From Thiomicrorhabdus sp. (GTDB lineage Bacteria; Pseudomonadota; Gammaproteobacteria; Thiomicrospirales; Thiomicrospiraceae), in assembly GCF_963662555.1 (NCBI RefSeq), contig NZ_OY759719.1, forward strand, positions 2,252,985 to 2,316,984: a DNA stretch of 64,000 nucleotides, read 5' to 3'. The notes beneath the pieces were generated by a model. It saw only the letters and a list, made by a program, of their open reading frames with translations. It did no database searches and had not been told where the DNA came from. Made by a program: the position numbers and the translations under genes. Positions 3,605-64,000 of the stretch are shown piece after piece (position 1 is the stretch's first letter; each line of letters opens with the position of its first letter).

Positions 3605-3616
3605 ACCAGGCCTGGT
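3605..3616. repeat. ACCAGGCCTGGT palindrome, copy 1 (intergenic)
   Basis: A perfect 12-bp copy of the dispersed palindrome, ending 9 bases before the ATG of the MGMT-like gene. It lies where a ribosome site or operator would be. Confidence 0.9.
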
Positions 3617-3625
3617 ATTTTACCC

Positions 3626-3952
3626 ATGACAAAACAGATAAAAAACAATACGTTACCTTTTAATGAGCAATGTTATACCCTACTGATGCTAATTCCAAAA
3701 GGCAAAATCACCACTTATAAAGCAATGGCTGAAGCTCTTGGTACCAAAGCCTATCAAGCTGTTGGCAATGCCATGGCAGCAAATCCAAACCCAATTATTG
3801 TACCTTGCCATAGAGTGGTTAACGCTAATGGGGCACTTGGCAACTATGCTTTTGGTATAGATAAAAAAACAGCGTTATTAGAATCCGAAGGGCTACAAAT
3901 CAAAGATGGAAAAATAGTAGATTTTGAAACGCATTTATTTACATTTAATTAA
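3626..3952 (+). CDS. MGMT-family O6-alkylguanine-DNA alkyltransferase domain protein (short)
   Basis: This 108-residue protein consists only of the C-terminal DNA-binding and active-site domain of O6-methylguanine-DNA methyltransferases. The motif VPCHRVVNANGALGNYAFG is complete and the acceptor Cys is residue 61. Alkyltransferase-like (ATL) proteins usually have Trp there, so this one could in principle be active. However, the helix equivalent to ARAVG reads YQAVG, so the arginine finger used for base flipping appears to be Gln44. The N-terminal domain of full-length Ogt/Ada is missing. The gene stands alone between tRNA-Ser and a diguanylate cyclase, with a palindrome copy directly upstream. 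It could be a repair enzyme or a lesion-recognition protein. Confidence 0.85.
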   Translation: MTKQIKNNTLPFNEQCYTLLMLIPKGKITTYKAMAEALGTKAYQAVGNAMAANPNPIIVPCHRVVNANGALGNYAFGIDKKTALLESEGLQIKDGKIVDFETHLFTFN

Positions 3953-4037
3953 TTTAAAACCGGTTAACTATCACCAATACACATCATGCGCTTTAGGCTG
4001 GTGAGGGTCTTGTCTGTAAAGCACTGTCTGGACATTA

Positions 4038-5201
4038 TTAACTCAGTTGCGTGACGGACGTCACTCTATTTCGTCCATTTCGTTTACTTTCAAACAACAT
4101 ATTGTCAGATTCATGCAATAAATCAGAAGCACTGAAACCATTGACAGGTACTTTAGAACTCACTCCTAAACTCAATGTTATCGACTGTTCTCCCCCATCA
4201 ATTTCAATTTGGTCATTCATGATATTGTTACGAATCCTTTCAGCAATGATCAATGCTTCATCGAGATTTGTATTATGAAGCGTAATCACAAATTCCTCTC
4301 CTCCATAACGAAACAGAGCATCTTCTGGCCGAATCTGTTGCTTGATGTTATTTGCAACCCTCACTAATACTTCATCTCCAATTTTATGCCCAAAAGTATC
4401 ATTAAAATCTTTAAAGTTATCAATATCACACATGATTAAACTAATCGGTTGCTGATTTTTTTTGTGCACATCCCAAGCTTTGTTCAAAATTTCATCGAAC
4501 GAACGTCTGTTTAAAACCTTCGTTAAAAAATCTGTTGTGGAAGTTTCTTCTAATTTAAGATTGGCTTCCTTAAGGTTGGCGATTAAAAATTCATTTTTTA
4601 ATGTTTGAATAATATTTTGCTTATGCGTTTGATGCAAACGGTTTACTTGACCATACAACATAACCCCAAAGACCATGAGCACGATGCTAATAATCATAGA
4701 TACAAAGCTAAACTGCAGTAAGTTGTAAATGAGATAACTGCCAATATAAGGCACCACAGAAAGATAAAAGGCAGGAATAAAAAATGCAGAATACATCGCG
4801 GCACTTGCCGCTAAAGACATCACCATTAAACTTAGGGCTAAGGATTCAAATGGTAAGTTGTGAAAATCTAAGAAAACAACAGAAGCCGCCCATAAAACAC
4901 CACTTGTAAGGGATGTTCCGAGCGCCATATTCCTCATCCAAGACTTATTTCTTTGCACAGTGGTGGCATTTAACCAAATACGGATAAATGTAAACCTGAC
5001 AAGCATATTGACTAGCAACACCCCCAGCCATAAGCCAAGCAAGGTCGAATCAACTTTACCAAAGAAAGTTGCTGCAACTAATAAACCAAATACCGTATGA
5101 ATAAAAACGGTTCCATAGGCGTGTGAATACAAATAGTCAGTCAGTAACTGATCAACTTTTTTGTCTGAGTACTTAAATTCAGGTATTTCTGGTGTATTCA
5201 C
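4038..5201 (-). CDS. Membrane-bound diguanylate cyclase (GGDEF)
   Basis: Makes cyclic di-GMP from two GTP at the inner membrane. The N-terminal half (about residues 28-195) has about six hydrophobic segments resembling a multi-pass sensor. After a short coiled linker, a GGDEF domain runs from about 215 to 385. The signature reads GGEEF (residues 300-304), so the catalytic site is intact. An RxxD inhibitory site (RPED, 291-294) sits five residues before it, so product inhibition is expected. No EAL domain is present. Translation appears to start at a GTG behind an AGGGA site. It lies downstream of serS with a 200-base gap, so it is probably separate. In a flagellated organism it is a natural motility/biofilm input, but its target is not shown. 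Confidence 0.92.
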   Translation of the reverse strand: MNTPEIPEFKYSDKKVDQLLTDYLYSHAYGTVFIHTVFGLLVAATFFGKVDSTLLGLWLGVLLVNMLVRFTFIRIWLNATTVQRNKSWMRNMALGTSLTSGVLWAASVVFLDFHNLPFESLALSLMVMSLAASAAMYSAFFIPAFYLSVVPYIGSYLIYNLLQFSFVSMIISIVLMVFGVMLYGQVNRLHQTHKQNIIQTLKNEFLIANLKEANLKLEETSTTDFLTKVLNRRSFDEILNKAWDVHKKNQQPISLIMCDIDNFKDFNDTFGHKIGDEVLVRVANNIKQQIRPEDALFRYGGEEFVITLHNTNLDEALIIAERIRNNIMNDQIEIDGGEQSITLSLGVSSKVPVNGFSASDLLHESDNMLFESKRNGRNRVTSVTQLS

Positions 5202-5297
5202 TTGATGGCTTCCCTTTTACCTAAGAAATAATTGAGTACATGAATCCAACTGCTCAACCACAGCCCGTGTTTTCTTAAGGCAATTTACCAATAGGGA

Positions 5298-5331
5298 TAG
5301 CCTCCCTTTTCATCGCGAAAAGGTAAGGCTA
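5298..5331 (-). other. Hairpin between serS and the diguanylate cyclase gene
   Basis: TAGCCT/AGGCTA (6 bp) encloses CCTTTTC/GAAAAGG (7 bp) with a small internal loop and a 5-base apex. There is no T run on either side, so it is not a standard terminator. It could be a weak serS terminator or part of the cyclase leader. Confidence 0.4.
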
Positions 5332-5402
5332 TACATTTATATTAATCGGTTATTTAATTAATCTATTTATGTCGACTTGAAGTTTTATTTTTAAAATGCG
5401 AG

Positions 5403-6692
<1,290 letters not shown>

Positions 6693-6836: not shown

Positions 6837-7364
6837 TTAGACATCTTCTTCTAAAAGTTCAATATCCACAATTAACTCATTGGCCAGTTCTTCTAATATT
6901 GCTCTAATTTCACTGGCAGGCACCTCTGTGGAAATGTGAACTTTGATATTGGCTTTAAACAGATGTTCGCCAGACATAGAAGCTTCAATCACTTCTGACT
7001 CAAGTTCATCCACATTGGCATTAATTTGAGCTAAAGCGGATGAAATTCGGTGAATAATCCCGGGTTGGTCTTGGCCAATCAGCTCAATCTCAAATTGATT
7101 TTGAGGCTCTTTATTGGCGTTTTCAGAGACCTCTTCAAATAGAACACTTAACCCTAATTGTTTTGCATTTTGCAGTTCTTGTTTAAAACCTTCAAATTCA
7201 CTTGCCGGTAAATCTACACGTAAAATACCAGCAAACTTGCCAGCTAAACTGGCCATCTGACTCTCAATCCATTGACCTTGATGAGCCACAATTATTTTTG
7301 AAAGCGATTTTACCAGGCCTGGTGAATCATTCCCCAATACGCTAATCACAATGGACTTATTCAT
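6837..7364 (-). CDS. gcvR: GcvR-like protein with two ACT domains
   Basis: A 175-residue protein with two ACT domains (about residues 5-75 and 92-165). The first opens with [17 protein letters not shown] and the second with [16 protein letters not shown], the typical ligand-loop pattern. GcvR of E. coli is a two-ACT repressor partner of the glycine cleavage activator GcvA, so a glycine-sensing role fits. The gene overlaps the end of gcvP by 8 bases and has a GAGGAG ribosome site inside gcvP, so it is co-translated with the cleavage enzyme. No gcvA is present in this window. A copy of the dispersed palindrome encodes part of the SPGLVK turn. Confidence 0.8.
7312..7323. repeat. ACCAGGCCTGGT palindrome, copy 2 (in gcvR)
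   Basis: Perfect 12-bp copy within gcvR, read in the frame that gives Pro-Gly-Leu-Val. Confidence 0.9.
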
Positions 7365-10353
7365 AACTCATCTCCTCTTGCTCATACTCCGTTAATGGCG
7401 GGCAAGAACAAACCAAATTACGGTCACCGTAAACATTATCGACCCGACCTACTGGAGGCCAATATTTAACCTGTTGTAAACTCTCTAAAGCATAGGCTGC
7501 TTGTTCTCGGCTATATGAGTGATTCCATTCACTATTCATAACACTGTAAGCGGTATGAGGTGCATTAATAAGTGGGTTATCATGTTCATCCAATACCCCA
7601 TTCATCACATCATTAATCTCTTGTTTAATGGCAATCATCGCATCACAAAAACGGTCAAGCTCCACTTTAGACTCAGACTCGGTAGGCTCTATCATCAAGG
7701 TTCCAGCAACTGGAAACGACATAGTGGGTGCATGAAAACCATAATCAATTAACCGTTTAGCAATGTCGTCCACACTAATGCCCGACTCTTCTTTAATAGG
7801 ACGCAAATCAATAATGCACTCATGAGCGACCAGGCCATTATCGTCACTATATAAAATTGGATAATGCGGTGCGAGTCGTTGGGCAATGTAATTAGCATTT
7901 AAAATGGCCACTGAGGTCGCTTGCATAAGGCCATCACGCCCCATCATGGCAATATAACTCCAACTAATCGGTAGTACGCCTGCACTCCCCCATGGAGCTC
8001 CAGAAACCGCACCAACTTCCTTAGGTTCATTCTCGTCTTCAATTACCGCATACCCTGGTAAAAATGGGGCTAAATGTTTGCCCACCCCAATTGGTCCAAT
8101 ACCTGGTCCACCCCCGCCATGCGGAATGGCAAAGGTTTTATGTAAGTTTAAATGCGAGACATCGCCCCCAAAATGGCCTGGTGCGGCAACCCCTACCATG
8201 GCATTCATATTGGCACCATCAATATAGACTTGCCCACCATGTTGATGCACCCAATCACAAACTGTTTTTACGTTTTCTTCAAACACGCCATGGGTTGAGG
8301 GATAGGTAATCATAATGGCGGCTAAATTTTGCGAGTGTTTTTCAAGTTTGGCTTGCAAATCCTCTAAGTCAATTTCACCTTTGGTATTTGTTTTAACGAC
8401 CACCACTGTCATACCCACCATCTGTGCGGAAGCGGGGTTTGTTCCATGTGCCGATGCTGGAATTAAACAAATATTACGGTGTTGTTCGCCACGGCTTTTA
8501 TGGTATGCACGAATTGCCAATAAACCTGCATATTCACCTTGTGCTCCTGAGTTAGGTTGTAAAGAAACCGCATCGTAACCTGTTGCTTGGCAAAGCATCT
8601 GTTCCAGCTCAAGCCGCATTTGTTGATAACCTTGGGCTTGATCTAGAGGAACAAATGGGTGAATATTGGCAAATTCCGGCCATGAAACGGGCATGAGTTC
8701 CGCTGCGGCATTAAGCTTCATGGTGCATGAACCTAATGGAATCATGGCTCTATCTAAAGCCAAATCTTTATCTGCCAACATTCGCATGTAACGCATCATC
8801 TCAGTTTCTGAACGGTGCTCATGAAATACGGGATGTGTTAAAAACTCTGACTCACGAATTAATTCTTCTGGAATCGCTGATGATAAGGAGTGTTCAGCGT
8901 TTTTCACAACACTCTGCACAACACTTTGCTCAACACTTTGTACAAAGTTATCCACAGCTTGTTCAGGCAACAAATCGGTGGTTAATTGCTCAGCGTGCTC
9001 TGCCGCTATTATTTGCCACAAGGCTTTAATGTCATCTAGCGTAGTACTTTCATCAAAAGAGAGTCCAATGCTATTTTCATCAATCTTTCTTAAGTTATAA
9101 CCTTGGGTTACCGCTTGTTGCAATACAACATTTACCAGGCCTGGTAATTTTATTTTGAGAGTATCAAAATAGTTTTTATACTCAATTTCAATACCGGCTT
9201 TAATTAAACCTGTTGCAAATACTTGAGTAAAACGATGCACTCTATAGGCAATTTGAGTTAATCCTTCCGCCCCGTGATACACAGCATACATGCTAGCCAT
9301 TACCGCTAATAAAGCCTGTGCTGTGCAAATATTACTGGTGGCCTTTTCTCGGCGGATATGTTGCTCTCGGGTCTGTAAAGCAAGTCGGTAGGCTTTTTGC
9401 CCATTACTATCAACTGACACCCCGATTAATCGCCCTGGCATAGAACGTTTAAAGGCATCTTTTGTCGCCATATAGGCGGCGTGCGGGCCACCATAACCAA
9501 GCGGAACGCCAAAACGCTGAGTATTACCAATAGCGACATCCGCCCCCATTTCGCCAGGTGGTTTTAGTAAGGTTAATGCCAATAAATCTGCCGCCACAGC
9601 CACCAATGCTTTTTTAGCATGGGCTTTTTCTATCAAAGGCGTTAAGTTTCTCACCTCTCCATAGGTACTTGGGTATTGCAGTAAGACACCAAACAGATCG
9701 TAATCATCAAAACCTTGTGTGGGATCAGCTACCACCACTTCAATACCTAAAGGTTCTGCACGAGTTTTTACCACTTCTATATTTTGTGGATGACAGTCAT
9801 CTGCCACAAAAAACACTTTACCTTTAGACTTACTCATTCGCTGGCAAAGTGTCATGGCTTCTGCACAGGCAGTGGCTTCATCTAACATAGAGGCATTGGC
9901 GAGTTCTAGCCCGGTTAAATCAGCAACCATGGTTTGAAAGTTAAGCATCGCCTCTAAGCGGCCTTGAGAAATTTCGGCTTGATAAGGAGTATAGGCGGTG
10001 TACCAGGCGGGGTTTTCGAGAATATTGCGTTGAATGGTTGGTGGTACCAGAGTGTTGTAATACCCCATACCAATAAAAGACTTGAGCACTTTATTTTGAC
10101 TTGCAATCGCTTTTAATTTGCTAAGAGATTGATGCTCGGTCAATCCCTCATTAATCAACATAGGTTGTTGGCGGCGAATAGACTTTGGTATGACCTTATC
10201 TAACAATTCATCTATGGTTGCTAAACCAAGCAAATCCAACATCTGTTGTTGTTCAGTTTGGTCAGGCCCAAGGTGACGTTTTACAAACTGTTCGCTCTGT
10301 TGAAGCTCGTGGAGTGAACGATTTGCCAGTTTAGATAAAAGTCTTTTACCCAT
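7357..10353 (-). CDS. gcvP: Glycine dehydrogenase (decarboxylating), glycine cleavage P-protein
   Basis: The P-protein decarboxylates glycine with pyridoxal phosphate and passes aminomethyl to the lipoyl arm of GcvH. At 998 residues it is a full-length fused P-protein, about 40 residues longer than E. coli GcvP. The N-terminal half carries [18 protein letters not shown]. The C-terminal half carries the PLP site around [16 protein letters not shown], whose Lys should bind the cofactor. The extra length includes a Gln/Ser/Val-rich linker between the two halves (about residues 465-490), coded by a 12-bp tandem repeat. A GGGAGAA site precedes the ATG. It sits in the order gcvT-gcvH-gcvP-gcvR. Confidence 0.97.
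8905..8940. repeat. 12-bp tandem repeat (3 units) inside gcvP
   Basis: Units CACAACACTCTG, CACAACACTTTG and CTCAACACTTTG lie head to tail. The period is a multiple of three, so copy changes would stay in frame; each unit adds four residues of a QSVV type to the inter-lobe linker of GcvP. Confidence 0.85.
9134..9145. repeat. ACCAGGCCTGGT palindrome, copy 3 (in gcvP)
   Basis: Perfect copy flanked by TTT and AATTT, inside gcvP; encodes LPGLVN. Confidence 0.9.
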
Positions 10354-10876: not shown

Positions 10877-10888
10877 ACCAGGCCTGGT
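10877..10888. repeat. ACCAGGCCTGGT palindrome, copy 4 (gcvT-gcvH gap)
   Basis: Perfect intergenic copy that extends to the 14-bp palindrome TACCAGGCCTGGTA. It lies inside the gcv operon, 66 bases after the gcvT stop in the direction of transcription. Confidence 0.9.
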
Positions 10889-12655: not shown

Positions 12656-14011
12656 TTATGAGCGGCGTTTATAAATGGCTTTTTCATTCAATTTTCTAAG
12701 ATGCTCCATCTTAGCGGAAATTTTTATTTCCAACCCTCGTTCAACAGGCTGATAATAGTCTCTCTCCATCATATCTTCTGGAAAGTAACATTCGCCAGCC
12801 GCAAAGGCTTCTGATTCATCATGTGCGTAACGATAGCCTTGTCCGTAATCCAGCTCGGCCATGAGTTTGGTAGGAGCGTTGCGTAAATGCAATGGGACTT
12901 CATGCGAACCATGTTCTTTAATATCGGCCAATACTGCTTTGTAAGCCATATAGACAGCGTTTGATTTTGGAGCCACCGCTAAATACGTTGCAGCATGAGC
13001 AAGAGCTAAATCACCTTCTGGAGAACCAAGACGTTCATAAGCTTCGGCAGCGTTCATGGCTAACTGCAATGCTTTAGGGTCGGCATTACCAATCTCTTCA
13101 CTTGCCATGCGGATTAAACGACGTGCCAAATAGCGTGGGTCAGCTCCTCCATCTAACATTCTGACTAACCAATACAAAGCGGCATTGGCATCTGACCCCC
13201 TTACTGATTTATGCAAAGCGGATATTTGGTCATAAAATGCCTCACCACCTTTATCAAAACGTCTTACGCCACCCTGAATGACTTCTTTACAATGTTCTGC
13301 TGATAAAATGACCAGGCCTGGTAAATCTTGATTGTCTGATATTTTTTTGGGCACAAATTCAGCAAAATCTATCGCTTGTTCTAGGCTATTTAATAATCTA
13401 CGGGCATCACCATCGGCAGCTTCAATCAGTAATTCTCTAGCTTTGTCTTCAATCTGAACCGTGACTTTTTCATCAACACTCAAATCTTGTTCAATTAAGG
13501 CACGACCACGTTCAAGTACTTTTGCCAGCTCATCATCTTCTAAGATTCTAAGTACATACACTTTAGCTCGTGATAACAAGGCATTATTGAGTTCAAACGA
13601 TGGGTTTTCTGTGGTTGCCCCAATAAACACAAAAGTGCCGTCTTCTACAAACGGTAAAAAAGCATCTTGCTGTGCTTTGTTAAAACGATGCACCTCATCC
13701 ACAAATAATAACGTGCCCTGCTTAAATTGCTCTCTGTGAAGTTTGGCTTGTTCTACCGCCGCTCGTACTTCTTTAACGCCATCCAAAACCGCAGAGAGAT
13801 TGATGAATTGCAAATCTGACTGTAAGGCAATGAGGCGTGCCAAGGTAGTTTTACCGACCCCTGGTGGCCCCCAAAAAACCATAGAGTGTAATCGACCAGA
13901 ATCGAGCATTCTTGAAAGTGCTCGGCGTTCACCCAATAAGTGAGTTTGACCAACATACTCAGTCAGTGTTTTGGGTCTTAAGCGATCTGAAAGTGGTTGA
14001 TAGACAGACAT
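12656..14011 (-). CDS. rarA: Replication-associated recombination protein A (RarA/MgsA ATPase)
   Basis: An AAA+ clamp-loader-like ATPase that acts at stalled forks and single-strand gaps (RarA/Mgs1/WRNIP1 family). The 451-residue protein shows Walker A GPPGVGKTTLAR, Walker B LLFVDEVHRFNKAQQD, and sensor 1 FIGATTENPSFELN, followed by the family's C-terminal tetramerisation domain (DPRYLARRLIRMASEEIGNADP). Its ATG overlaps the lolA stop (TAATG), so the two are translationally coupled. A palindrome copy lies within the gene at the LPGLVIL segment. Confidence 0.96.
   Translation of the reverse strand: MSVYQPLSDRLRPKTLTEYVGQTHLLGERRALSRMLDSGRLHSMVFWGPPGVGKTTLARLIALQSDLQFINLSAVLDGVKEVRAAVEQAKLHREQFKQGTLLFVDEVHRFNKAQQDAFLPFVEDGTFVFIGATTENPSFELNNALLSRAKVYVLRILEDDELAKVLERGRALIEQDLSVDEKVTVQIEDKARELLIEAADGDARRLLNSLEQAIDFAEFVPKKISDNQDLPGLVILSAEHCKEVIQGGVRRFDKGGEAFYDQISALHKSVRGSDANAALYWLVRMLDGGADPRYLARRLIRMASEEIGNADPKALQLAMNAAEAYERLGSPEGDLALAHAATYLAVAPKSNAVYMAYKAVLADIKEHGSHEVPLHLRNAPTKLMAELDYGQGYRYAHDESEAFAAGECYFPEDMMERDYYQPVERGLEIKISAKMEHLRKLNEKAIYKRRS
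13311..13322. repeat. ACCAGGCCTGGT palindrome, copy 5 (in rarA)
   Basis: Perfect copy encoding LPGLV within rarA. Confidence 0.9.
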
Positions 14012-14649
14012 TACTGCGGCGTACCTACTAAGTCTGCACCTTCTGGCATTTTAAACTCAAAGTTTTTGTAAGGAATCACTTGATTAGATTGAATATTTTT
14101 AAATTTCACATTCGTCACATTGGTAGGACTTTGATACATTTTTACCTCAACCATTTCACCGTCTCTCATACCCACATCAATGCTTTGAAAATAGGTTGGT
14201 GCTTTTGGCGTTAAGTTAAACCATTGCAAACCGTTTTTATCACCTGATTCAATAATACTAAATTTATCTTGAATGGGATCTCTATAAAGCAACCAACTAA
14301 GTGGTAGTTCGGCTTTTATATCGTTTATTGGTCGCACGGTAACTTGGTCTAAATCTTGGTCATACACCCATAGATTATGACCATCAACCACGATTTTTTG
14401 TTGCTCTGGCTGAAAGTATTGCCAAGTAAGTTTACCAGGCCTGTTCAATTCAAAATGCCCTGTAGATTGGTTGGTTTGAAACAACTCCTCATCTGGTTGG
14501 GTTTGCACAAAATCGGCTTTAAACGTTTGTAACTGGTTAACATAATCTTGCAGTGCTTTACCTGGTTTAGCTTTAGCATAGGCCTGATTGGTTACCGCTA
14601 AACTTGCCACTACCAATAAAGTGGCAAAGGTTTTAAAAATCAATTTCAC
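14011..14649 (-). CDS. lolA: Outer-membrane lipoprotein carrier protein LolA
   Basis: A periplasmic chaperone that carries lipoproteins from the LolCDE transporter to LolB. The 212-residue precursor has a clear signal peptide (about residues 1-25, hydrophobic core FATLLVVASLAV, cleavage after AYA). The mature part has the LolA pattern: FKADFVQTQ, GHFELNRPGKLTWQY, the VDGHNLWVYDQDLDQV strand pair, and FKMPEGADLVG at the end. It sits between ftsK and rarA, the usual gammaproteobacterial order. The 128-base gap from ftsK holds a 12-bp tandem repeat. Confidence 0.95.
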   Translation of the reverse strand: MKLIFKTFATLLVVASLAVTNQAYAKAKPGKALQDYVNQLQTFKADFVQTQPDEELFQTNQSTGHFELNRPGKLTWQYFQPEQQKIVVDGHNLWVYDQDLDQVTVRPINDIKAELPLSWLLYRDPIQDKFSIIESGDKNGLQWFNLTPKAPTYFQSIDVGMRDGEMVEVKMYQSPTNVTNVKFKNIQSNQVIPYKNFEFKMPEGADLVGTPQ

Positions 14650-14777: not shown

Positions 14778-17339
14778 TTATTGTTCTTGTGGTTTTGGAG
14801 CCAATACTTCACGGTTACCATTTGAACCTGCCGTTGAAACCACACCAGCTGATTCCATGGCCTCGACAATACGAGCTGCACGGTTATAACCAATTTTGAA
14901 GCGGCGTTGTACCGATGAAATTGAGACCTTTCTACCTTGCACAACAAACTCAACAGCCTCGTCATACAAAGCATCTTGTTCAGCATCGCCATCGTTCATA
15001 CCACCGTTACCATCAGCCCCATTATTAGCTTTGGTAATTGACTCTAAGTACTGAGGTTTACCTTGTGATTTTACAAACTCGGCCACTCTATGAACTTCTT
15101 CATCGGTCATAAAGGCACCGTGAACACGCTTGGGCGAACCAGAACCAGGCGGCATAAAGAGCATATCCCCCATACCTAAAAGTTGTTCTGCCCCACCCTG
15201 ATCTAAAATAGTACGCGAGTCAATTTTGGTGTTTACCATAAAAGAGATACGAGTTGGGATATTGGCTTTAATCAAACCAGTAATGACGTTAACCGATGGA
15301 CGTTGAGTGGCCAAAATTAGGTGGATCCCTGCGGCACGTGCTTTTTGGGCAATTCGAGCAATCAACTGCTCAACTTCTTTACCTACAACCATAATCATGT
15401 CGGCAAATTCATCTACCACCACAACAATAAATGGCAAAGGCTCTAGTGTTGGCGGTGCTTCGCCGATTTCATGACCAAAGTTAGCCGCTTGTTGATAAAG
15501 TGGATCAATAATAGGTTGGCCTTTATCAATCGCTTCTTTGACTTTAAGGTTATAACCGGCAATATTTCTTACCCCTAGTTTTGCCATGAGCTGATAACGT
15601 CTGTCCATCTCAAATACACACCAACGCAATGCATTAGCGGCGTCGCTCATATCAGTAACAACTGGGGTTAATAGATGCGGAATATCTTCATAAATGGATA
15701 ATTCCAACATTTTTGGGTCAACCATGATTAGGCGAACTTCTTCAGCTGTACTCTTATAAAGCATACTCAAAATCATACTGTTCACACCAACCGATTTACC
15801 CGAACCGGTTGTACCCGCCACTAATAAATGCGGCATTTTAGCGATATCCGCCACCACTGGCTTACCGGCAATATCTTTACCTAAAGCAATCGTTAATGGT
15901 GATGAGGCAGACTGAAACTCTTCTGAGGCCAAGACCTCTCTAAAGCCCACAATTTCTCGTTGTTCATTTGGTATCTCTATGCCCACTACCGCTTTACCAG
16001 GAATAACATCTACCACACGTACCGATTGCACAGAAAGTACACGGGCTAAATCTTTTGCCAAATTATTAATTTGACTCACCTTTACACCTGGTGCTGGCAA
16101 AATCTCAAAACGGGTTACCACTGGGCCTGGCTGAACCGATTCCACCTGGACGGTCACACCAAACTCAAGTAATCGTTGTTCTAACAAGGAAGATAACGCA
16201 GTTAGTTCATCTTTACTAAAACCTTCATCATAAGTTGGAGGCATATCCAATAAATCTAGCTTAGGTAGTTCCGCTTTTTCAACAATGCTTACATTAGCAG
16301 AACCGACTTGCTTAGTACCTACCGTTAACCCCTGGGGAGCCGCTACGGTAGAATCCGTTGTTTCAGTTGAATTTGTTGTTGTACTAATAGAATCTGAACC
16401 AGCTACTTTAGCGTTTGTTTGAGTAACCGGAGCTTCGTCATTGTAAAGAGGCGTTGTAACAATTTTTGGATCAACCGTTGGTTTATTGGCCAAATCTGTT
16501 TCTATTTCAGAATTGCTATCTTTAGAGGAAGGCAACACTTTTGCCAACCATTTTTTTCTAGCCTCTACTGCATCATTACTTGTAGTATTGGAGGCTATTT
16601 GACTAACTCCCTGCTTAACCTGAGTATGGATTTTTTGAACACGCTCTTTAACCCTATCAGATTCCATAACCTTGTCTTTGAACAGGCCTGTTAATTTGTC
16701 ATATAACTTAAAGGTACTTTCACCAGTAAATTCAATAATCGTTAGCCATGAACAACTACTTAACATACTAAACGCGACGGCAAACATAACCAATAAAATT
16801 AAGGTTGCTCCTAATAAATCAACCGAACCAACCAGAGCATTACTTAATTCATAACCCAAAACACCACCAGCAGAATAAGGCAAAGCAATTAAAGTATCTG
16901 GATGCATATATAAATTTGCCAGGCCTGCTCCTGAACTAATCAACAGCAATAAACCAAATAAACTCAATATAAACCTTAAATAATCGAGCTCATTCCCCGT
17001 TCTAATTTTGAGTGTGACCCAGCCTGCTAATAAAATACCAAAGGGAATCAGAAAACCAAAAACGCCAAATACATAGAGCAACATCGAAGAGATCCAAGCT
17101 CCTGTTTGCCCACCGTAATTTTTAAAGCTTTGACTCTCGCCAACTGAGTCAAAACCTGAGTCAGTAGGTGAAAAGCTAAATAACACAATAAATAAGAAAA
17201 AAGCTAAACCAATACAGCTCAACACGACACCGTCTTTTAGAATCCAACTAAAACGTTTGAGTGTGCTAATTTTTTCACCGCTTTTTTCATTACTAACAGT
17301 AGTGGACTTTTTTTCAATTTTTGCTGATTTAAAAGACAT
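14778..17339 (-). CDS. ftsK: DNA translocase FtsK
   Basis: A septal DNA pump that resolves chromosome dimers and clears DNA from the closing septum. The 853-residue protein has four or five N-terminal transmembrane helices (to about residue 200) and a short variable linker rich in Thr/Asn/Ser (about 230-360). The RecA-like motor has Walker A AGTTGSGKSVGVNS and Walker B PFIVVVVDEFADMIM. The C-terminal gamma winged helix (about 785-850, VSISSVQRRFKIGYNRAARIVEAMESAGVVS) recognises KOPS. The linker is much shorter than in E. coli FtsK (1329 aa). It is divergent from trxB. Confidence 0.97.
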   Translation of the reverse strand: MSFKSAKIEKKSTTVSNEKSGEKISTLKRFSWILKDGVVLSCIGLAFFLFIVLFSFSPTDSGFDSVGESQSFKNYGGQTGAWISSMLLYVFGVFGFLIPFGILLAGWVTLKIRTGNELDYLRFILSLFGLLLLISSGAGLANLYMHPDTLIALPYSAGGVLGYELSNALVGSVDLLGATLILLVMFAVAFSMLSSCSWLTIIEFTGESTFKLYDKLTGLFKDKVMESDRVKERVQKIHTQVKQGVSQIASNTTSNDAVEARKKWLAKVLPSSKDSNSEIETDLANKPTVDPKIVTTPLYNDEAPVTQTNAKVAGSDSISTTTNSTETTDSTVAAPQGLTVGTKQVGSANVSIVEKAELPKLDLLDMPPTYDEGFSKDELTALSSLLEQRLLEFGVTVQVESVQPGPVVTRFEILPAPGVKVSQINNLAKDLARVLSVQSVRVVDVIPGKAVVGIEIPNEQREIVGFREVLASEEFQSASSPLTIALGKDIAGKPVVADIAKMPHLLVAGTTGSGKSVGVNSMILSMLYKSTAEEVRLIMVDPKMLELSIYEDIPHLLTPVVTDMSDAANALRWCVFEMDRRYQLMAKLGVRNIAGYNLKVKEAIDKGQPIIDPLYQQAANFGHEIGEAPPTLEPLPFIVVVVDEFADMIMVVGKEVEQLIARIAQKARAAGIHLILATQRPSVNVITGLIKANIPTRISFMVNTKIDSRTILDQGGAEQLLGMGDMLFMPPGSGSPKRVHGAFMTDEEVHRVAEFVKSQGKPQYLESITKANNGADGNGGMNDGDAEQDALYDEAVEFVVQGRKVSISSVQRRFKIGYNRAARIVEAMESAGVVSTAGSNGNREVLAPKPQEQ

Positions 17340-18521: not shown

Positions 18522-18555
18522 TTAATCAATTTACCAGGCCTGGTAAATTGATTAA
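18522..18555. repeat. Perfect 34-bp palindrome centred on ACCAGGCCTGGT (copy 6)
   Basis: The left half, TTAATCAATTTACCAGG, is exactly mirrored by the right half. It contains the dispersed 12-mer at 18533-18544. It lies 9 bases after the trxB stop and 38 bases before the start of the FKBP gene. It has no T run after it. It could be an operator, a cruciform or a weak terminator. Confidence 0.95.
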
Positions 18556-23308: not shown

Positions 23309-24136
23309 TTATTTGATTTTTTTATAGATGGTTTGCCCAAGCAATTCAAAACGATCGCAAACTTTGTATAGTGATTCGGAGTGTCCTATAAATAAATGAC
23401 CATTTTCGGGGAGTCTATCAGCATAACGATTAAATAATTTGGCCTGTGTAGTTTTATCAAAATAGATAACGACATTACGGCAAAATATAACATCAATATC
23501 ATCTTTTATGGGCCAGTCTTCCATTAAATTTAATTGCCCAAACTCAATAATTTTTTGTATCTCAGGCTTTACTTTAACTAGCCCATCTTGAGAACCCGTT
23601 CCTTTTAAAAACCAACGTTTTTTTCGTTCTTCACTCACCCCTTTAAGGCGATCAATCTTGTAAACCCCTGCTTTACCAGTTGCCACGACATTTGAATCAA
23701 GATCAGTGGCAATCACTTTTGCATCCCATCCAGCTGGAACCGACTCTTTTAGGGCGATTGCAATCGAATAAGGCTCTTCTCCGGTAGAACAACCAGCTGA
23801 CCAAACCCTAATTTTCTTTTTGCCTTGATTGGCTTTTACCAGGCCTGGTATAACAGTGTTAGCTAAATATTCAAAATGATGATTTTCTCTAAAAAAGAAC
23901 GTTAAATTAGTCGTAATGGCATTAATAAGGTGTACAAATTCTGCTTCACCTTGAGCTTCTACAAACTTTAAATATTCAGCAAATGTCTGCATATTCAAAA
24001 AACGAATGCGTTTAGATAAACGGTTATAGACAAGATTCTTTTTAGATTCATTTAAATCAATGCCAGCGTAATCGTAAACAATTTTTTTTACACGATTAAA
24101 GTCATTGTCTTGAAAATCAAATTCGCGTTCGCTCAT
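23309..24136 (-). CDS. cheR: Chemotaxis protein methyltransferase CheR
   Basis: Methylates glutamates on chemoreceptors using S-adenosylmethionine. The 275 residues have the N-terminal helical domain and a Rossmann methyltransferase domain. The SAM motif reads RVWSAGCSTGEEPYSIAI, and the later motifs FCRNVVIYFD and GHLFIGHSESL are typical. The internal copy of the dispersed palindrome encodes VIPGLVKA. A possible sigma54 site lies about 40 bases upstream. Confidence 0.97.
   Translation of the reverse strand: MSEREFDFQDNDFNRVKKIVYDYAGIDLNESKKNLVYNRLSKRIRFLNMQTFAEYLKFVEAQGEAEFVHLINAITTNLTFFFRENHHFEYLANTVIPGLVKANQGKKKIRVWSAGCSTGEEPYSIAIALKESVPAGWDAKVIATDLDSNVVATGKAGVYKIDRLKGVSEERKKRWFLKGTGSQDGLVKVKPEIQKIIEFGQLNLMEDWPIKDDIDVIFCRNVVIYFDKTTQAKLFNRYADRLPENGHLFIGHSESLYKVCDRFELLGQTIYKKIK
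23838..23849. repeat. ACCAGGCCTGGT palindrome, copy 7 (in cheR)
   Basis: Perfect copy, extended to TACCAGGCCTGGTA; encodes IPGLV. Confidence 0.9.
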
Positions 24137-46072: not shown

Positions 46073-46112
46073 TTGTATCTCACATCTGTACATTGCATCG
46101 TAAACTCAGAAA

Positions 46113-49926: not shown

Positions 49927-51618
49927 TTAGCCTCCAGACATCCATTGTTTAATTACGTGAGCAGCCACCTTAGGATCTGACGCAACAATTGTTCGTACTT
50001 TCTCCAATAACTCATGCTCAGCTTCAGATTCGGCTTCAGACGCTACTGCTGTCTGTTCTACTTCCTCATTCATCTGTTCAAGAGCTCTAGAAATCTCATC
50101 TACATTTTCTAACTCTTCAGCTTCTTCAGGAACATCCTCAGGATACTCTAAGTAAGTCTCTTCTTTCTTAGATAAATCTTTCAACATCGGACGAATCACA
50201 CCAAAGATAATAAATAGAACTGCCAGGCCTGCTAAAACTTGTTTAATTAAGTTCCAAAACCAGGTTTCTTGCCAAATAGGAGCTGTTTCAACCACTTCTG
50301 CAGGAGCAGTAACAAAAGAAGCATTTACAACACTTAAGGTATCGCCACGTGCCTCATCAAGGCCAACAGTATCACTGACTAGACGTCGATAACGAAGTAG
50401 CTCGTCTTCTGCAATAGGCTGCCTAACAATTTGCCCATTTGCATCAAGACTCGTTTTATCATCTAAAACCACTGCAACAGATAAACGGTGGATATTACCT
50501 ACTGAATTTTTAATATGACTAACTGTTCTATCAAGCTCATAGTTTTTGGTTTTTTTCTCACTTGAGCTTTTTAAATTAGGATCATTACTTGCCTTATAGC
50601 CTTCTTCAGGTGCAATACCTGCTCTTGGAGGTTGATTAGTTAGAGCCCCCGGAATCCCTGTTGGTCCTTGATCACGATTAATCTCTTTTACTTCTTGTTC
50701 AGAGCGAATCGCTTCAGGATCCGGCTCATAGTTTTCTCGTGTCTGTTCTTGCTGTGTAAAATCAAGCTCGGCAGTTACCTGAGCCCTTACTTTATTCTCC
50801 CCGCCAACAATAGGAGCTAAAAGTCTAATAATACGGTTAGATAAGGTCTCTTCAACCTGGCGAGTATAATCCAGCTGTTTCATACTCATATGAAGCATGC
50901 CATTATTGGCATTTGAATTTGTTAGTAGATTTCCGTTTTGATCAACAACGGTCACAGATTTAGCATCTAAATTTGGAATACTTGAGGCAACTAAATAGAC
51001 AATCGCACTGACTTGCTCTTCATTTAAGCTTCTACCTGGATAAAGCTTAACAACGACTGAGGCTGATGGCTTTTGCTGCTTTCTTACAAAAACTGAACGC
51101 TTTGGCAATCCTAACATCACTCGAGCAGATTTTACGGAATTAATAGATGAAACCGATTTAGCTAATTCACCTTCAAGAGCACGGTGATAACGAGTTGTTT
51201 CTTTAAATTGAGAAATACCAAAACCTTGCTCAACATCTAAAAGTTGATAGCCAGTAGCGGCTTGTTTTGGATAACCAGCGGCAGCTAATTTTATGCGAAG
51301 TGAATGAACTAAATCATTAGGAACTAAAATACCACCACTGCTGCTATCAATGCGGTATTTAACGCCTTCTTGCTCCAGCGTTTGTACAATCTCATTCATA
51401 TCTTTGGCATCAACACTTCCAAAAAGCAGAGTGTAATTTGTGTTTTGCGACCACAAAAAAATACCCACAACAAGAGCCAGAGAAGCAGCTAAAGCAATCA
51501 CTAAACTGACTTGTTTAGCAACAGATAGAGAAGTAAGATTATTTAATAAAGCAGAGCCAGTGCCACTTGGTGGCTGCATATTAAGAGAATTGTCGAGAGA
51601 CGCTTGTTGATCTGCCAT
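49927..51618 (-). CDS. fliF: Flagellar MS-ring protein FliF
   Basis: Forms the MS ring in the inner membrane. The 563 residues have two helices (about 35-55 and 448-468) and the conserved ring-building motifs, including YQLLDVEQGFGISQFKETTRYHRALEGELAKSV. The C-terminal tail (EEVEQTAVASEAESEAEHELLEKVRTIVASDPKVAAHVIKQWM) binds FliG. A degenerate palindrome copy (50222-50233) sits in the second helix. Confidence 0.97.
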   Translation of the reverse strand: MADQQASLDNSLNMQPPSGTGSALLNNLTSLSVAKQVSLVIALAASLALVVGIFLWSQNTNYTLLFGSVDAKDMNEIVQTLEQEGVKYRIDSSSGGILVPNDLVHSLRIKLAAAGYPKQAATGYQLLDVEQGFGISQFKETTRYHRALEGELAKSVSSINSVKSARVMLGLPKRSVFVRKQQKPSASVVVKLYPGRSLNEEQVSAIVYLVASSIPNLDAKSVTVVDQNGNLLTNSNANNGMLHMSMKQLDYTRQVEETLSNRIIRLLAPIVGGENKVRAQVTAELDFTQQEQTRENYEPDPEAIRSEQEVKEINRDQGPTGIPGALTNQPPRAGIAPEEGYKASNDPNLKSSSEKKTKNYELDRTVSHIKNSVGNIHRLSVAVVLDDKTSLDANGQIVRQPIAEDELLRYRRLVSDTVGLDEARGDTLSVVNASFVTAPAEVVETAPIWQETWFWNLIKQVLAGLAVLFIIFGVIRPMLKDLSKKEETYLEYPEDVPEEAEELENVDEISRALEQMNEEVEQTAVASEAESEAEHELLEKVRTIVASDPKVAAHVIKQWMSGG

Positions 51619-53593: not shown

Positions 53594-54744
53594 GAGACTT
53601 CCTTCCTAGATGTTAAAGGTAAACGTAAACCAAATTGGGTGCCGTAACCAACAATGGATTTTACCCAGACTTCACCATTATGAGCTTCAGCAATTGCTCT
53701 TACAACCGCCAAACCAAGGCCTGTTCCTTTTGCACGACTTGTAAAAAAAGGTTCAAAAATCTTTTCTAGCTTATCTGATTCAATACCAGGGCCTTTATCA
53801 CTGACAACGACATCGACTCTGTTGGCAGAAACTTTATTCACAGTAACTTCGATATCGGCCCTTTGGCCAACAATATCAATCGCATTACCCACTAAATTTT
53901 GCAAAGCAGTCATTAATGCATCTTTATCGCCTGTAATTACCAGGCCTGGTATAAATGCATTAAAACGAATCTTACTTAAAGATTGATTTATTTGAGCCTC
54001 AACACTCTGTTCTAACTGCTCTATTAAATCCTCAAGTAAAATCGCCTTATCACTCCCCTTTCCACCTTTTGCATACTGCAACATGTCTTTTACTAAAGAC
54101 TCCAGGTGATTAAGGCTATTTAACGCCTTACCAACAAATTTTTCTCTTTTATCATCATCAAGGTGTTCAGAGTTCATTTGCGATACATAGAGCAATGCAG
54201 AAGAGAGTGGCGTTCGTATTTGATGAGCCAAAGAAGCCGCCATTTCACCCATAGAATGTAGGCGTTGATGGCGGCTTTCATGATCCTGAAGCTGCCTAGC
54301 AGCAGTAACATCCTGAATCAATAGAATTCGGCTTGAATCCTTATTTGATGTGGTCTCAGATAACTGGTAAACCATTTTATTATGTGTAATTAATTCACCC
54401 GCATCATTGGTAGTGAGAAAGACATTTTTAATAACTATATCCCAATCGCGATTAACCGCATCAGCACCTAAAATTTCTTGGGCACTCGGGTTCATCTCTA
54501 CAATGACATTATTGTCACTTAACACAAGAACTCCAGCAGGTAAAACATCCAAAAGACGACTTAGACGATCTGCTACTCGTTTTTTTTCTTGGTCACTACG
54601 GGCTAATTGACTTTGTAAATGAGCCGCCTGATTTTGTAGTGCTTCATAGGAGGTAGTAAGCTGTAAAGAGGTCTGATTAAACAGATCAAAAGCCGCTTCT
54701 AACTCCTTGAGACGCTCTTGTTCTTGCATATCAATCAAATCCAT
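53590..54744 (-). CDS. flrB: Flagellar sensor histidine kinase FlrB/FleS
   Basis: A soluble kinase of FlrC. The 384 residues have an N-terminal coiled coil, a PAS domain (about 62-150), a DHp helix with His174 in MGEMAASLAHQIRTPLSSALLYVSQM, and an ATPase domain with NLVGNAIDIVGQ, VSDKGPGIE, FEPFFTSRAKGTGLGLAVV. No membrane helix is present, so it senses a cytoplasmic cue. A perfect palindrome copy (53939-53950) encodes IPGLVI. Confidence 0.96.
   Translation of the reverse strand: MDLIDMQEQERLKELEAAFDLFNQTSLQLTTSYEALQNQAAHLQSQLARSDQEKKRVADRLSRLLDVLPAGVLVLSDNNVIVEMNPSAQEILGADAVNRDWDIVIKNVFLTTNDAGELITHNKMVYQLSETTSNKDSSRILLIQDVTAARQLQDHESRHQRLHSMGEMAASLAHQIRTPLSSALLYVSQMNSEHLDDDKREKFVGKALNSLNHLESLVKDMLQYAKGGKGSDKAILLEDLIEQLEQSVEAQINQSLSKIRFNAFIPGLVITGDKDALMTALQNLVGNAIDIVGQRADIEVTVNKVSANRVDVVVSDKGPGIESDKLEKIFEPFFTSRAKGTGLGLAVVRAIAEAHNGEVWVKSIVGYGTQFGLRLPLTSRKEVS
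53939..53950. repeat. ACCAGGCCTGGT palindrome, copy 10 (in flrB)
   Basis: Perfect copy, extended to TACCAGGCCTGGTA; encodes IPGLVI in flrB. Confidence 0.9.
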
Positions 54745-54765: not shown

Positions 54766-55848
54766 TTAAGAAAGGTCATATTTACGAATTTTTTCAACTA
54801 ATGTAGTTCTATTAGTTTGTAGTAATTTAGCAGCTTGAGACACATTGCCATCTGTCTGAGACAGAGCTTTTTGAATGAGTTGTACCTCCATTTCTACCAA
54901 ATACGATTTTAAATCCAAGCCTTCATCTAAATTTGGAGACCCCATGTCATGTCCCATGTTCTCTTTTTCTAGATTATTTTCTTGGGTATCAATTTGAGCA
55001 TTCTCATTATCCATTTGCAGGTTATTTACTTTAGGTTCAGTAACCTCTTCTGCAACTAATAATTGAGCAGAGTTATCGATCTCTACCTGGTACTTAGCTG
55101 GTAAATCGTCATAATCTACTGACAGGCCTGGAAATAAAATTGATAAACGTTCCGCTAAGTTACCCAGTTCACGAACATTTCCAGGCCACGGATAATTCTG
55201 CAACGCGATTAACGCCTTTTCAGACAGTGTTGGAATCTTTCTACCCTCTGACTGAATACGAGCAAACATATAATCCAATAATTCAATAATATCTTCTGGT
55301 CGTTCTCGTAATGAAGGCATTTCAATAGGAAAAACATTCAAGCGGTAATAAAGATCCTCTCTAAAATCACCTGCTTCAATATTATCTTCGAGGTTTCGGT
55401 GTGTAGCAGCAATGATTCTCACATCACATTCAAAACTTTTATTACCACCTACACGTTCATAAATTCGTTCCTGGAGGACTCGCAGAAGTTTTACTTGCAT
55501 AGGTAATGGCATATCACCAATTTCATCTAAGAAAATAGAGCCTTTTTCTGCCATTTCAAAACGCCCTTTACGAGCAGTAATGGCACCTGTGAATGCTCCT
55601 TTTTCATGACCAAATAGCTCACTTTCTAACAATTCCCCAGGAATTGCTCCACAGTTAATAGGTACAAAAGCACGATTTGAACGTTCAGAAGAGTTATGTA
55701 AAGCTTGAGCAACCACCTCTTTACCTGTTCCAGATTCACCTAAAATAAGAACGGTTGCATCGGTTTGTGCTACTTGGAGAATGAGTTTTTTAACTTTTTG
55801 CATCGCGGAACTAGAGCCCACGAGTGAAGTAAAAATTTCTTGAGACAT
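54766..55848 (-). CDS. flrA: Sigma54 activator FlrA/FleQ-type flagellar master regulator lacking the N-terminal domain
   Basis: An AAA+ sigma54 activator that should head the flagellar cascade. The 360 residues start directly at the AAA+ domain ([16 protein letters not shown]), with Walker A GESGTGKE (37-44), GAFTGA (84-89) and a C-terminal Fis-type helix-turn-helix ([26 protein letters not shown]) very like FleQ. FleQ and FlrA of Pseudomonas and Vibrio have about 490 residues with an N-terminal receiver-like domain that is absent here. The FleQ c-di-GMP contacts LFRS and R-N appear replaced (FTS, and Q48-A49). A strong sigma70 promoter lies upstream, so the short start is real. Confidence 0.9.
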
Positions 55849-60988: not shown

Positions 60989-61024
60989 GATAAATCTCCT
61001 TTTTAGATAAATTGTTAGTGTTGC

Positions 61025-61965: not shown

Positions 61966-62060
61966 GATATTTTCTCCCTGTATGTTTTTACATACTAATT
62001 TGTGTGTTTACTTTATGTTTTATTTATATTTTTAGACAGTATCTCCTGCCTTCAATACCT

Positions 62061-62087
62061 TTAACGGACACGAAAGATAAAACTTTA
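62061..62087 (-). promoter_or_regulatory. Sigma28 (FliA) promoter of the first flagellin gene
   Basis: On the minus strand TAAAGTTT-N11-TCCGTTAA matches TAAAGTTT-N11-GCCGATAA with a perfect -35 and two mismatches in the -10. Confidence 0.78.
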
Positions 62088-62111
62088 GAAAAAATTAAAA
62101 AAAAACCGAAA

Positions 62112-62148
62112 AAAAAGCCCAAAGTCCTAAAAAAGGAGCTTTGGGCTT
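62112..62148 (-). terminator. Intrinsic terminator of the motility accessory factor gene
   Basis: AAGCCCAAAG/CTTTGGGCTT with an additional TCCT/AGGA pair forms a strong hairpin, followed by eight T on the minus strand. Confidence 0.92.
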
Positions 62149-62176
62149 AAAAAAAGGGTTTAAATCTATATTAAAT

Positions 62177-64000
62177 CTATAAGCTATATTGAATAGAATT
62201 TAGAAAATCAGAGAGTTGTTGCTGATTAATCTCTGAACTAGACTGCGCTTTTATAATGATTTGATTTGTTTGTTGTTTATCAACAGAAGCCAATAAATTA
62301 ATTAAATCTAAAACCGCTGAGGTATCTTTGAACAGGTTAGGGTATTGTTTTAATAACTCTATTGCTCCTTCAGAATTCCCTAGAAAGGCGATAAGGTTTG
62401 CTAGCCTTGGCAGATAATTAATATCAACTTGGCATAATGACTGTAATGACTTGATGGCTACTTCATAATCTTCAAGCTTAACTGCTAATGGGTAAACACT
62501 GTTTTGAATGAGATATAACTCATAATTTGGATCTAAAGTAATTAAATGAATTAATGCTTCTTTTTCTTGACCTTGAAGTTGCATGATTAAAGTTGCGGTA
62601 TATTTTTTGTAAAAAAGTAATTCAGCATCCTGTTGGTTTTCTAATTGTTGATAAATTTCTTGTACCTCTTCTAGTGAAGAAGCCTGAAAAGCCTTTAAAA
62701 GTCTATTAATCAATTCAGCAGGATCTATTTCCATTGTCGTTTGCTCAAATTTTGCATCAAGGTTTTTATTTGAGGTAAATACTTCTGCATACTGAGCATC
62801 TAAATCAGCGACCAGGCCTGGAACATTTTCTTTATAGTAATCTATTGAGTTAGGTGCAAAATAATCTAACCATACATAAAACCGCCCAGGAACCCCACTC
62901 TCAATCCAATGATGCACTAGAGCCTCAAAATCAACATTTTGGGTTATCTCATTTTCCCTAAACTTAATTTCTTCTTGAGCCTTTTCTAGCTTTTCAATAA
63001 ATCGTTTTGTAGCAACTCTAATGCCTGAGAAAAAATCGATAAATGACTGACTAATCTCATCATTAGACATCGCTTGTTCAGAATCAAGCGGCTTTAAGGT
63101 TTGCATAAATTCATCATAAGCGTAATTGACCATTACTGAATAATCACTGGCTAGCTTTCCTTCCAATCTTTTTTTAAGCTTAATGATTTCGTTAATACGC
63201 TTTTGCTTCAAGGCAGGCTTTTCAAAAAGTGTAGAGGCTAACTGCTGCCCCTGTTGAGATATTTTTTGTAATGCATTTAACCAACCAACATGTTGATTTA
63301 TTTGACCTCTCATTTCTTTTAAAAAATGTCGTGTTGTCTCAGCATCAAAAGCCAATTCTTTAGAAAAAAGTTCAATGGCATTTTGCTTATTACTTACCAA
63401 ATCAATCTCTTTCGTTGCTTGATAGGATATCCCTTTTGCAACCGCGGCCGTTTCACTTAAGTTAAATACGTTTAAGTTTGAACAAAACGCTTTAAAGTTC
63501 ATCAATTGATTTTCAAAACTATTGAGAGCCATATAAAGCTGTAGATTGGTAGTCGTCATCTCTCCCAAATAATTAGTGACTTGAACCTCGCCTTTTGCAA
63601 CCACTTGCTTTCGTGCTTCAACACTTGCAGACTCGTGCGTTTTTCCTTCAGGTGTGAAGCATAAATCGACACCAGCCAAATAAATGTTTCTTAATCCTAA
63701 ACAAACAGCGGCACCAAACAGGCTATTAGAGACCGTTGGTCCGCCTGCATCAAAATTATTTTCGCTTCCTCTTCTCCAGGGAAAACGGTTTTGTGCATAG
63801 GTTTTTAAACCACCCCATTGCCGAATAATCGTTGGGCAAGGATGATTGCCAGTAATCAAAACACTTTGTTCCTGAAATAAATACATTTCTCTAGAATAGT
63901 CAAACATCAATGGTTGAGGGTCAACTACCCCGATAAAATCTGGTGTAATACCCTCTTGCTTAAGACGTCCACAGATCCGACTTACTGCAAAAATCCACAA
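62177..64000 (-). CDS. Motility accessory factor (MAF/MptE-like flagellin glycosyltransferase), 5' end outside window
   Basis: The window holds 607 codons of a larger gene. The visible N-terminal part carries the MAF_flag10/6-hydroxymethylpterin pyrophosphokinase-like domain (GVVDPQPLMFDYSREM, VLITGNHPCPTIIRQWGG, GAAVCLGLRNIYLAGVDLCFTPEGKTHE). Members of this family transfer nonulosonic acids such as pseudaminic or legionaminic acid to flagellin before export. The C-terminal half is a helical repeat region, possibly TPR-like. Its position directly before two flagellins fits that role. A degenerate palindrome copy (62811-62822) encodes NVPGLVAD. Confidence 0.88.
   Translation of the reverse strand: MWIFAVSRICGRLKQEGITPDFIGVVDPQPLMFDYSREMYLFQEQSVLITGNHPCPTIIRQWGGLKTYAQNRFPWRRGSENNFDAGGPTVSNSLFGAAVCLGLRNIYLAGVDLCFTPEGKTHESASVEARKQVVAKGEVQVTNYLGEMTTTNLQLYMALNSFENQLMNFKAFCSNLNVFNLSETAAVAKGISYQATKEIDLVSNKQNAIELFSKELAFDAETTRHFLKEMRGQINQHVGWLNALQKISQQGQQLASTLFEKPALKQKRINEIIKLKKRLEGKLASDYSVMVNYAYDEFMQTLKPLDSEQAMSNDEISQSFIDFFSGIRVATKRFIEKLEKAQEEIKFRENEITQNVDFEALVHHWIESGVPGRFYVWLDYFAPNSIDYYKENVPGLVADLDAQYAEVFTSNKNLDAKFEQTTMEIDPAELINRLLKAFQASSLEEVQEIYQQLENQQDAELLFYKKYTATLIMQLQGQEKEALIHLITLDPNYELYLIQNSVYPLAVKLEDYEVAIKSLQSLCQVDINYLPRLANLIAFLGNSEGAIELLKQYPNLFKDTSAVLDLINLLASVDKQQTNQIIIKAQSSSEINQQQLSDFLNSIQYSL

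Follow-up and report, generated by a model that had tools for sequence, protein, structure and literature searches.

What keeps a single 12-bp palindrome in place, many times over, in otherwise unrelated parts of a bacterial chromosome? The question is raised by a stretch of 64,000 nucleotides from Thiomicrorhabdus sp., a member of the sulfur-oxidising family Thiomicrospiraceae, called the window below, which covers positions 2,252,985–2,316,984 of the source genome G000, a single contig of 2,696,250 bp. The palindrome, ACCAGGCCTGGT, occurs 10 times in the window. Comparison with other genomes of the family (designated G with a number) shows that a symmetric DNA word is kept over long times and is lost or supplanted as a whole. 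As the best, still tentative, explanation we propose that the word would be a site for a dimeric protein, maintained by a drive, and most likely a palindromic signal for self DNA or DNA uptake.

Abundance of the palindrome in the source genome and in the window

There are 488 exact copies of ACCAGGCCTGGT in the 2,696,250 bp of G000 and none of the reversed control, compared with approximately 0.07–1 expected copies (Markov orders 1–4 in a 484-kb sample, scaled by hand to the whole genome). Apart from the copy counts of whole genomes, the genome statistics reported here come from sampled stretches, amounting to 484 of 2,696 kb for G000. This sample contains 72 ACCAGGCCTGGT where 0.01–0.17 are expected, and 143 copies of the 8-bp core CAGGCCTG where 3.4–15 are expected, at the same Markov orders. 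The enrichment is 66-fold for the 8-mer core versus 3.8-fold for the 6-mer AGGCCT; relative to the expectation from base composition, the ratios in G000, calculated by hand, are about 1.5 for GGCC alone and about 1.4 for AGGCCT outside CAGGCCTG. The excess over chance that was initially noticed in the window is therefore found genome-wide, as for the highly iterated palindromes of the HIP1 type: the counts are far from the Markov expectation and the word is not restricted to the window. The original prediction was right in its observation, and understated it. In the same sample, the words TATATA and ATATAT are present at 0.3 of expectation.

In the window, there are 23 matches to ACCAGGCCTGGT with at most two mismatches (mean of 1.09 and maximum of 4 in 100 shuffles) and 19 CAGGCCTG cores. 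All 10 perfect copies lie at the coordinates originally claimed and 7 of them extend to TACCAGGCCTGGTA, as had been described. Eight of the nine near copies proposed were also correctly placed; the ninth, put at 55131, is off by 8 bases and corresponds to the CAGGCCTG core at 55123. Open reading frames (ORFs) were called greedily as the longest ORFs, with no gene finder. By this calling, 7 of the 10 exact copies are in ORFs and 3 in gaps. The reported bias towards the reading phase Pro-Gly-Leu-Val is also present (14 of the 26 ORF copies in the G000 sample), and in eight related genomes, G000 included, CAGGCCTG is in the corresponding phase in 87 of 131 cases. The copies in the window are as follows (window coordinates; no strand is assigned).

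3605–3616: exact copy, convergent gap; the corresponding place has exact copies in G030, G016 and G027 and one-off copies in G009 and G015
7312–7323: exact copy, ACT-domain ORF adjoining gcvP; 5 other genomes carry the identical 12-mer here
9134–9145: exact copy (TACC..GGTA), in gcvP
10877–10888: exact copy (TACC..GGTA), gap between the glycine-cleavage H and T genes
13311–13322: exact copy, variable-length loop of a rarA-like AAA ATPase gene
14434–14445: near copy ACCAGGCCTGTT, lolA; also in G030, with CCGGCCGG at this place in G023
16681–16692: near copy AACAGGCCTGTT, ftsK-like gene
16918–16929: near copy GCCAGGCCTGCT, ftsK-like gene
18533–18544: exact copy, gap; flanks lengthen the palindrome, predicted RNA hairpin of -16.6 kcal/mol
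23838–23849: exact copy (TACC..GGTA), cheR gene
24361–24372: exact copy (TACC..GGTA), near the start of a FliK-like ORF
34271–34282: near copy GCCAGGCCTGGT, flhA
37417–37428: near copy ACCAGGCCTGCT
39541–39552: near copy ACCAGGCCTGCT
45711–45722: exact copy (TACC..GGTA), fliK-like gene
50222–50233: near copy GCCAGGCCTGCT, fliF
53939–53950: exact copy (TACC..GGTA), histidine-kinase gene
55123–55130: CAGGCCTG core, the copy earlier placed at 55131
62811–62822: near copy ACCAGGCCTGGA

The window carries two ORFs with similarity to FliK-type hook-length control proteins (24316–25359 and 44471–46093). At positions 37840 and 37864 of G000, two exact copies are found 24 bp apart, between the phosphoglycerate kinase and pyruvate kinase genes; there is no regulator gene in this interval.

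Distribution, dialects and conserved positions

The distribution of CAGGCCTG over 62 genomes of the family is bimodal. There are 236–1173 copies in 32 genomes (the bearers) and 0–74 in the remaining 30 (motif-poor), the cut between 74 and 236 cores being our own, set at the gap in the counts. The exact 12-mer reaches 718 copies in a genome of the family, and was found 0 or 1 times in each of the 21 genomes of the same class, but outside the family, in which it was counted. The 14-mer is present in at least 117 stretches of genome contigs among the matches listed, so that a similar system may exist beyond the family; 36 viral stretches contain it at one site each, which we read as chance.

The centre of the word, CAGG followed by CCTG, is invariant, and the bases around it form dialects (ACC, AGC, AAC and GCC), some of them weak. 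The half-site is ACCAGG in G000 and its close relatives, AGCAGG in G008 and G063, AACAGG (weak) in G005 and G018, and GCCAGG (weak) in G081; CACCAGG is found in G067 and G060. Outside G000, these dialects were read from samples of about 12–80 kb per bearer, with 5–34 cores each. In G000, AT flanks lengthen the word to approximately AATTTACCAGGCCTGGTAAATT, and the conserved flanks reach about 22 bp; the AT flanks are mostly missing in group g5, which is probably the genus Thiomicrospira. Over-representation with dialects around a fixed core is the pattern expected of the DNA uptake sequences (DUS) of Neisseriaceae and the uptake signal sequences (USS) of Pasteurellaceae.

One genome uses another word. 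G023, counted among the 30, has only 12 cores but carries 1025 copies of the palindrome ACCGGCCGGT (TTACCGGCCGGTAA), which occurs at most 15 times in every other genome of the 62. In the FtsK tree, G023 is nested inside a motif-poor clade. Its word is also in excess outside ORFs (20 of the 54 copies sampled). In the region of window position 14434, where G000 has a near copy and several relatives have a CCCGGACGCT-type sequence, G023 has CCGGCCGG, as if the new word had arisen in place. In sampled stretches of the motif-poor genomes G003, G014 and G031, the 6-mer ATCGAT is 3.0–4.3 times more frequent than expected from base composition.

Presence and absence of the motif were placed on a tree of 49 genomes made from a single protein, the C-terminal part of FtsK, in which the long-branch rows are unsurely placed. 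Seven changes are needed, at least four of which are forced by well-supported branches. The motif has thus been lost repeatedly and was once supplanted by another palindrome. It is probably old in the family, as judged from positions common to several genera.

These positions were compared in the orthologous regions around ftsK, using the cores of eight ACC-dialect genomes; the ordered pairs share sites and are not independent. Among the ACC-dialect genomes, 188 of 271 comparisons show an identical core in the corresponding place at 75% nucleotide identity, compared with 12% for control 8-mers and 9% for GC-matched ones. A same-place core is found in 13 of 20 cases for bearers from other genera, 39 of 96 for other dialects and 0 of 162 for the motif-poor genomes with G023, where control 8-mers are retained at 7–8%. 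Because this last value is below that of the control 8-mers, the conservation belongs to the word and not to the protein. At the rarA-like site (window 13311), 22 of 28 bearers, with G000 counted and four genera represented, have the 12-mer or the core, compared with none of 21 other genomes. Retention at the same place only in bearers, together with the variable length of the rarA-like loop, indicates that the sites occupy parts of the protein open to change, and that only the species using the word retain them.

The dispersal of the copies in unrelated loci could also reflect a small palindromic mobile element, of which they would be scars or copies, and alignment gaps in several motif-poor rows at the rarA-like site are consistent with this. 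However, at most of the aligned window sites the species differ by substitutions in continuing alignments and not by a 12-bp insertion, and the position is common to several genera, which makes such an element scarcely credible.

We infer instead that a dimeric, sequence-specific DNA-binding protein recognises the palindrome: the copies behave as sites of genome-wide recognition. What maintains them would be a drive on the DNA word and not the function of each gene. Copy number and dialects suggest such a drive, as does the species with a thousand copies of another word, since dialects and a complete second set of sites would be reached more easily by drive than by selection on single sites. 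If the recognising protein were lost or changed, the sites would decay or another word would take over; this would account for the pattern of losses and the single replacement described above.

Placement in genes and gaps, hairpins and chromosomal spread

The sites are unevenly divided between genes and gaps. In the G000 sample, 43 of the 69 exact sites and 60 of the 143 cores are outside ORFs, though ORFs cover 86% of the DNA; in group g5, 128 of 147 cores are inside ORFs. Over 17 bearers, the core density per kb is 2.11 in convergent gaps, 1.17 in tandem gaps and 0.62 in divergent gaps. Cores in tandem gaps are more often closer to the upstream stop (65 of 95), and no marked run of T follows these copies (T 0.31 versus A 0.36).

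The flanks of the non-coding sites are complementary. In 23 bearers (n = 187), complementarity relative to shuffled flanks is evident at flank positions 3–5 (z = 5.6) and weaker at positions 6–8 (z = 2.3); no flank complementarity is observed at the coding sites (n = 363). In G000 alone the covariation is not significant position by position, and it becomes clear with pooled positions and more genomes. At window position 18533, the flanks differ among six relatives yet stay complementary. As the core is kept in coding copies independently of pairing, and the flanks pair in non-coding copies, the core matters as DNA sequence and the non-coding copies are also hairpins. Secondarily, these copies may act as hairpins at gene ends and possibly terminate transcription, as their covariation and placement suggest.

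An element that is mainly an RNA hairpin or terminator would account for this covariation and for the preference for convergent gaps. It would leave unexplained the many copies in ORFs (in G000, 26 of the 69 exact sites, besides the cores of g5), which show no pairing beyond the core, the conservation across species of coding copies, among them the rarA-like site and the copy at window 7312, and the lack of a marked T-run. We regard a terminator-only function as highly improbable.

The density of one core per about 2–6 kb resembles that of Chi in Escherichia coli, and CTGGT is common to the half-site CCTGGT and E. coli Chi, GCTGGTGG; the word might thus be a Chi-like site, effective in both directions, for an enzyme of the RecBCD type. 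However, Chi is oriented and not palindromic, and an excess outside ORFs is not Chi-like. The family word is palindromic, unoriented and in excess outside ORFs, and neither the G023 word nor the AGC and AAC dialects contain CTGGT. A Chi-like role therefore seems decidedly improbable.

The spread of the copies along the chromosome bears on another possibility, namely that the word is bound by a dimeric protein, abundant inside the cell, whose role is to organise the chromosome or to partition it. This would be a new factor of the nucleoid-associated or occlusion type, and selection would act on the spacing of its sites. The original prediction had compared the palindrome with HIP1-type behaviour or with sites for a chromosome-organising protein; both fit as descriptions, and we consider the second possible, though distinctly doubtful. 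The sites of Noc, SlmA and ParB are dimeric, palindromic and of similar length. The 12–22-bp palindrome with AT flanks in G000, the Poisson-like to even spread, the positions kept across genera, the dialects seen as drift in specificity, and the presence of the motif in genomes without a better PilQ-type hit (defined below) are all consistent with such a protein. In 20 stretches of 20 kb from G000, the counts have a mean of 2.95 and a variance of 3.10, as in a Poisson distribution.

Unlike the sites of Noc, SlmA and ParB, the family word is far more numerous and has no visible pattern relative to replication origin (ori) and terminus (ter): by eye, there is no ori/ter trend, ter depletion or ori clustering in the G000 sample. 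The three stretches around the skew switch at 1.5–1.8 Mb have counts of 5, 3 and 1, to be compared with the mean of 2.95 given the small sample. No general second ParB is found. The ParB profile PF02195 has one full-strength match in each of the 62 genomes, except for two in G007 and G062; a few genomes have weak extra matches, which show no relation to the presence of the motif. Finally, the thousand sites of another word in G023 would be hard to reach by selection on single sites.

Methylation, uptake machinery and comparison with known iterated words

To our knowledge, the function of HIP1 in cyanobacteria is still unsettled. A solitary DNA methyltransferase acting with methyl-directed mismatch repair might create and keep such a word. 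The family word is similar to HIP1 and its alternates in being palindromic, highly iterated and sporadically absent or replaced by another GC-rich palindrome; Elhai's study likewise describes alternates in sporadic genomes, and its abstract offers only a clue to HIP1 function (PMC4390886). It differs from HIP1 in its greater length, the AT flanks in G000, the non-coding excess, the hairpin covariation and the existence of bearers without the methyltransferase families PF00145 and PF01555.

The association with a cognate cytosine methyltransferase, described by Elhai for HIP1, is not supported in the bearers. Both PF00145 and PF01555 are without a match in 11 of the 26 bearers that are at least 99% complete (G000, G015, G018, G025, G027, G033, G060, G064, G068, G075 and G081), in a search of 58 genomes that did not extend to other adenine-methyltransferase families (PF02384, PF02086 and PF07669). 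The other 15 match one or both profiles, as would be expected from scattered restriction–modification systems. As possible determinants of the motif, PF00145 and PF01555 were rejected, since they do not track its presence in the 58 genomes. G023 also lacks both, and its CCGGCCGG core contains no adenine. Furthermore, the low enrichment in G000 of GGCC and of AGGCCT outside CAGGCCTG, and the conserved flanks of about 22 bp, do not fit a word kept by methylation of this type. A missing methyltransferase is not in itself fatal to this explanation, because four HIP1 genomes are without a recognisable CGATCG methyltransferase, as Elhai points out (PMC4390886). Nevertheless, we consider a HIP1-type origin improbable; the methylase or restriction system offered in the original prediction is unsupported by the two profiles searched.

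An iterated palindrome is thus found in bacteria that can lack both methyltransferase families searched, while the leading explanation of HIP1 leans on methylation. The family also provides natural contrasts of presence and absence between related species, dialects and one replacement. In these free-living chemolithoautotrophs, the competing ideas of an uptake drive, of chromosome organisation and of a repair bias lead to predictions that differ and can be tested.

The dialects, the conservation at orthologous positions, the repeated losses and the non-coding hairpins make the word resemble DNA uptake sequences. Most likely, self DNA would be preferentially taken up or recombined when it carries the word, and the word would then be a palindromic counterpart of DUS and USS. 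Like these, the family word is present in hundreds to a thousand copies, has dialects with a fixed core and a non-coding excess, may serve in part as a terminator, and is evenly spaced in some genomes. Uptake sequences are described as having dialects with a conserved core and being able to serve as terminators (PMC12616744), and as showing a non-coding excess, with even spacing reported by Karlin as cited there (PMC1939737). Even spacing is observed in two Hydrogenovibrio genomes, as a coefficient of variation (CV) of 0.58 in G036 with an 83-kb gap left out and of 0.64 in G064, relative to about 0.98 under the null; these CVs are derived from the first listed positions only. Within stretches, there is a deficit of pairs closer than 2 kb in Hydrogenovibrio (P = 0.002), and a slight one in G023 (P = 0.025). 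ComEC is encoded in 56 of the 62 genomes and in 31 of the 32 bearers.

The 83-kb region of G036 that lacks the 12-mer resembles a young mobile element: the 20 kb sampled have one core, a GC content of 0.453 (compared with 0.543–0.548) and a TrwC relaxase. The same low-GC stretch (240001–260000) codes for a Fic protein and a type I secretion-like set beside the relaxase.

Several observations weigh against an uptake or self-DNA signal. Known uptake sequences are not palindromes (PMC12616744, PMC1939737), and the second of these sources describes them as poor terminators that are not very evenly spaced (PMC1939737). With the 83-kb gap included, the CV of G036 is 1.73; even spacing is clear in only two of five position lists, and not in those of G000 (0.94), G019 (0.94) or G072 (cores, 1.00). 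Within stretches, the ACC group of Thiomicrorhabdus avoids close pairs weakly, and two other groups do not avoid them. No uptake experiment in Thiomicrospiraceae was among the matches listed in literature searches. Profile searches for ComEC, PilQ, ParB, FimT/GspH, PF00145 and PF01555 yielded no cognate protein. ComEC is also present in 25 of the 30 motif-poor genomes (G023 included) and does not discriminate. The FimT/GspH profile PF12019 has three weak matches in the 62 genomes, all in motif-poor ones.

For PilQ, we use as marker a better PilQ-type hit, defined as a best E-value below 1e-45 with TIGR02515; the marker is soft, none of the 62 genomes passing the curated cut-off. Also unfavourable to the uptake signal, such a hit is missing in G063, G064, G067 and G075, bearers given as 100% complete, although it is present in their sisters G035, G036 and G060. 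Among genomes at least 95% complete, with G023 left out, it is found in 23 of 27 bearers and 11 of 18 motif-poor genomes, a loose association that is not significant (Fisher p = 0.086).

A palindromic signal for self DNA or uptake is nevertheless ranked above an architectural protein, with the methylation, Chi-like, terminator-only and mobile-element explanations well below. The word is assigned to neither HIP1 nor DUS/USS, since each has a defining or associated feature that was tested and is lacking here: in the first case the cytosine methyltransferase, and in the second an oriented, non-palindromic word, the family word being a perfect palindrome in a different gammaproteobacterial family. 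Our analysis suggests a DNA-recognition system not recognised before, which may mark the cell's own DNA. It is possible, although open to considerable doubt, that this is a third, independent and palindromic family of uptake sequences, with dialects in four genera, repeated losses and one replacement, whose putative dimeric recogniser would not strictly depend on a PilQ-type pilus. In literature searches, ACCAGGCCTGGT had no match, nor had CAGGCCTG in connection with over-representation and palindromes, and none of the uptake and competence papers among the matches listed deals with the motif. A Thiomicrorhabdus paper in which palindromes are mentioned does so only in spelling out CRISPR.

The isolated losses of the motif in G003, in the G074/G076/G078 group and in G082 coincide with a missing better PilQ-type hit, a coincidence noticed post hoc; under an uptake drive, sites may decay slowly after loss of the machinery. 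The better hit is missing in G003, G058, G063, G064, G067, G074, G075, G076, G078 and G082, among others. Since it is absent from so many genomes, members of the family may have lost type IV pili on several occasions.

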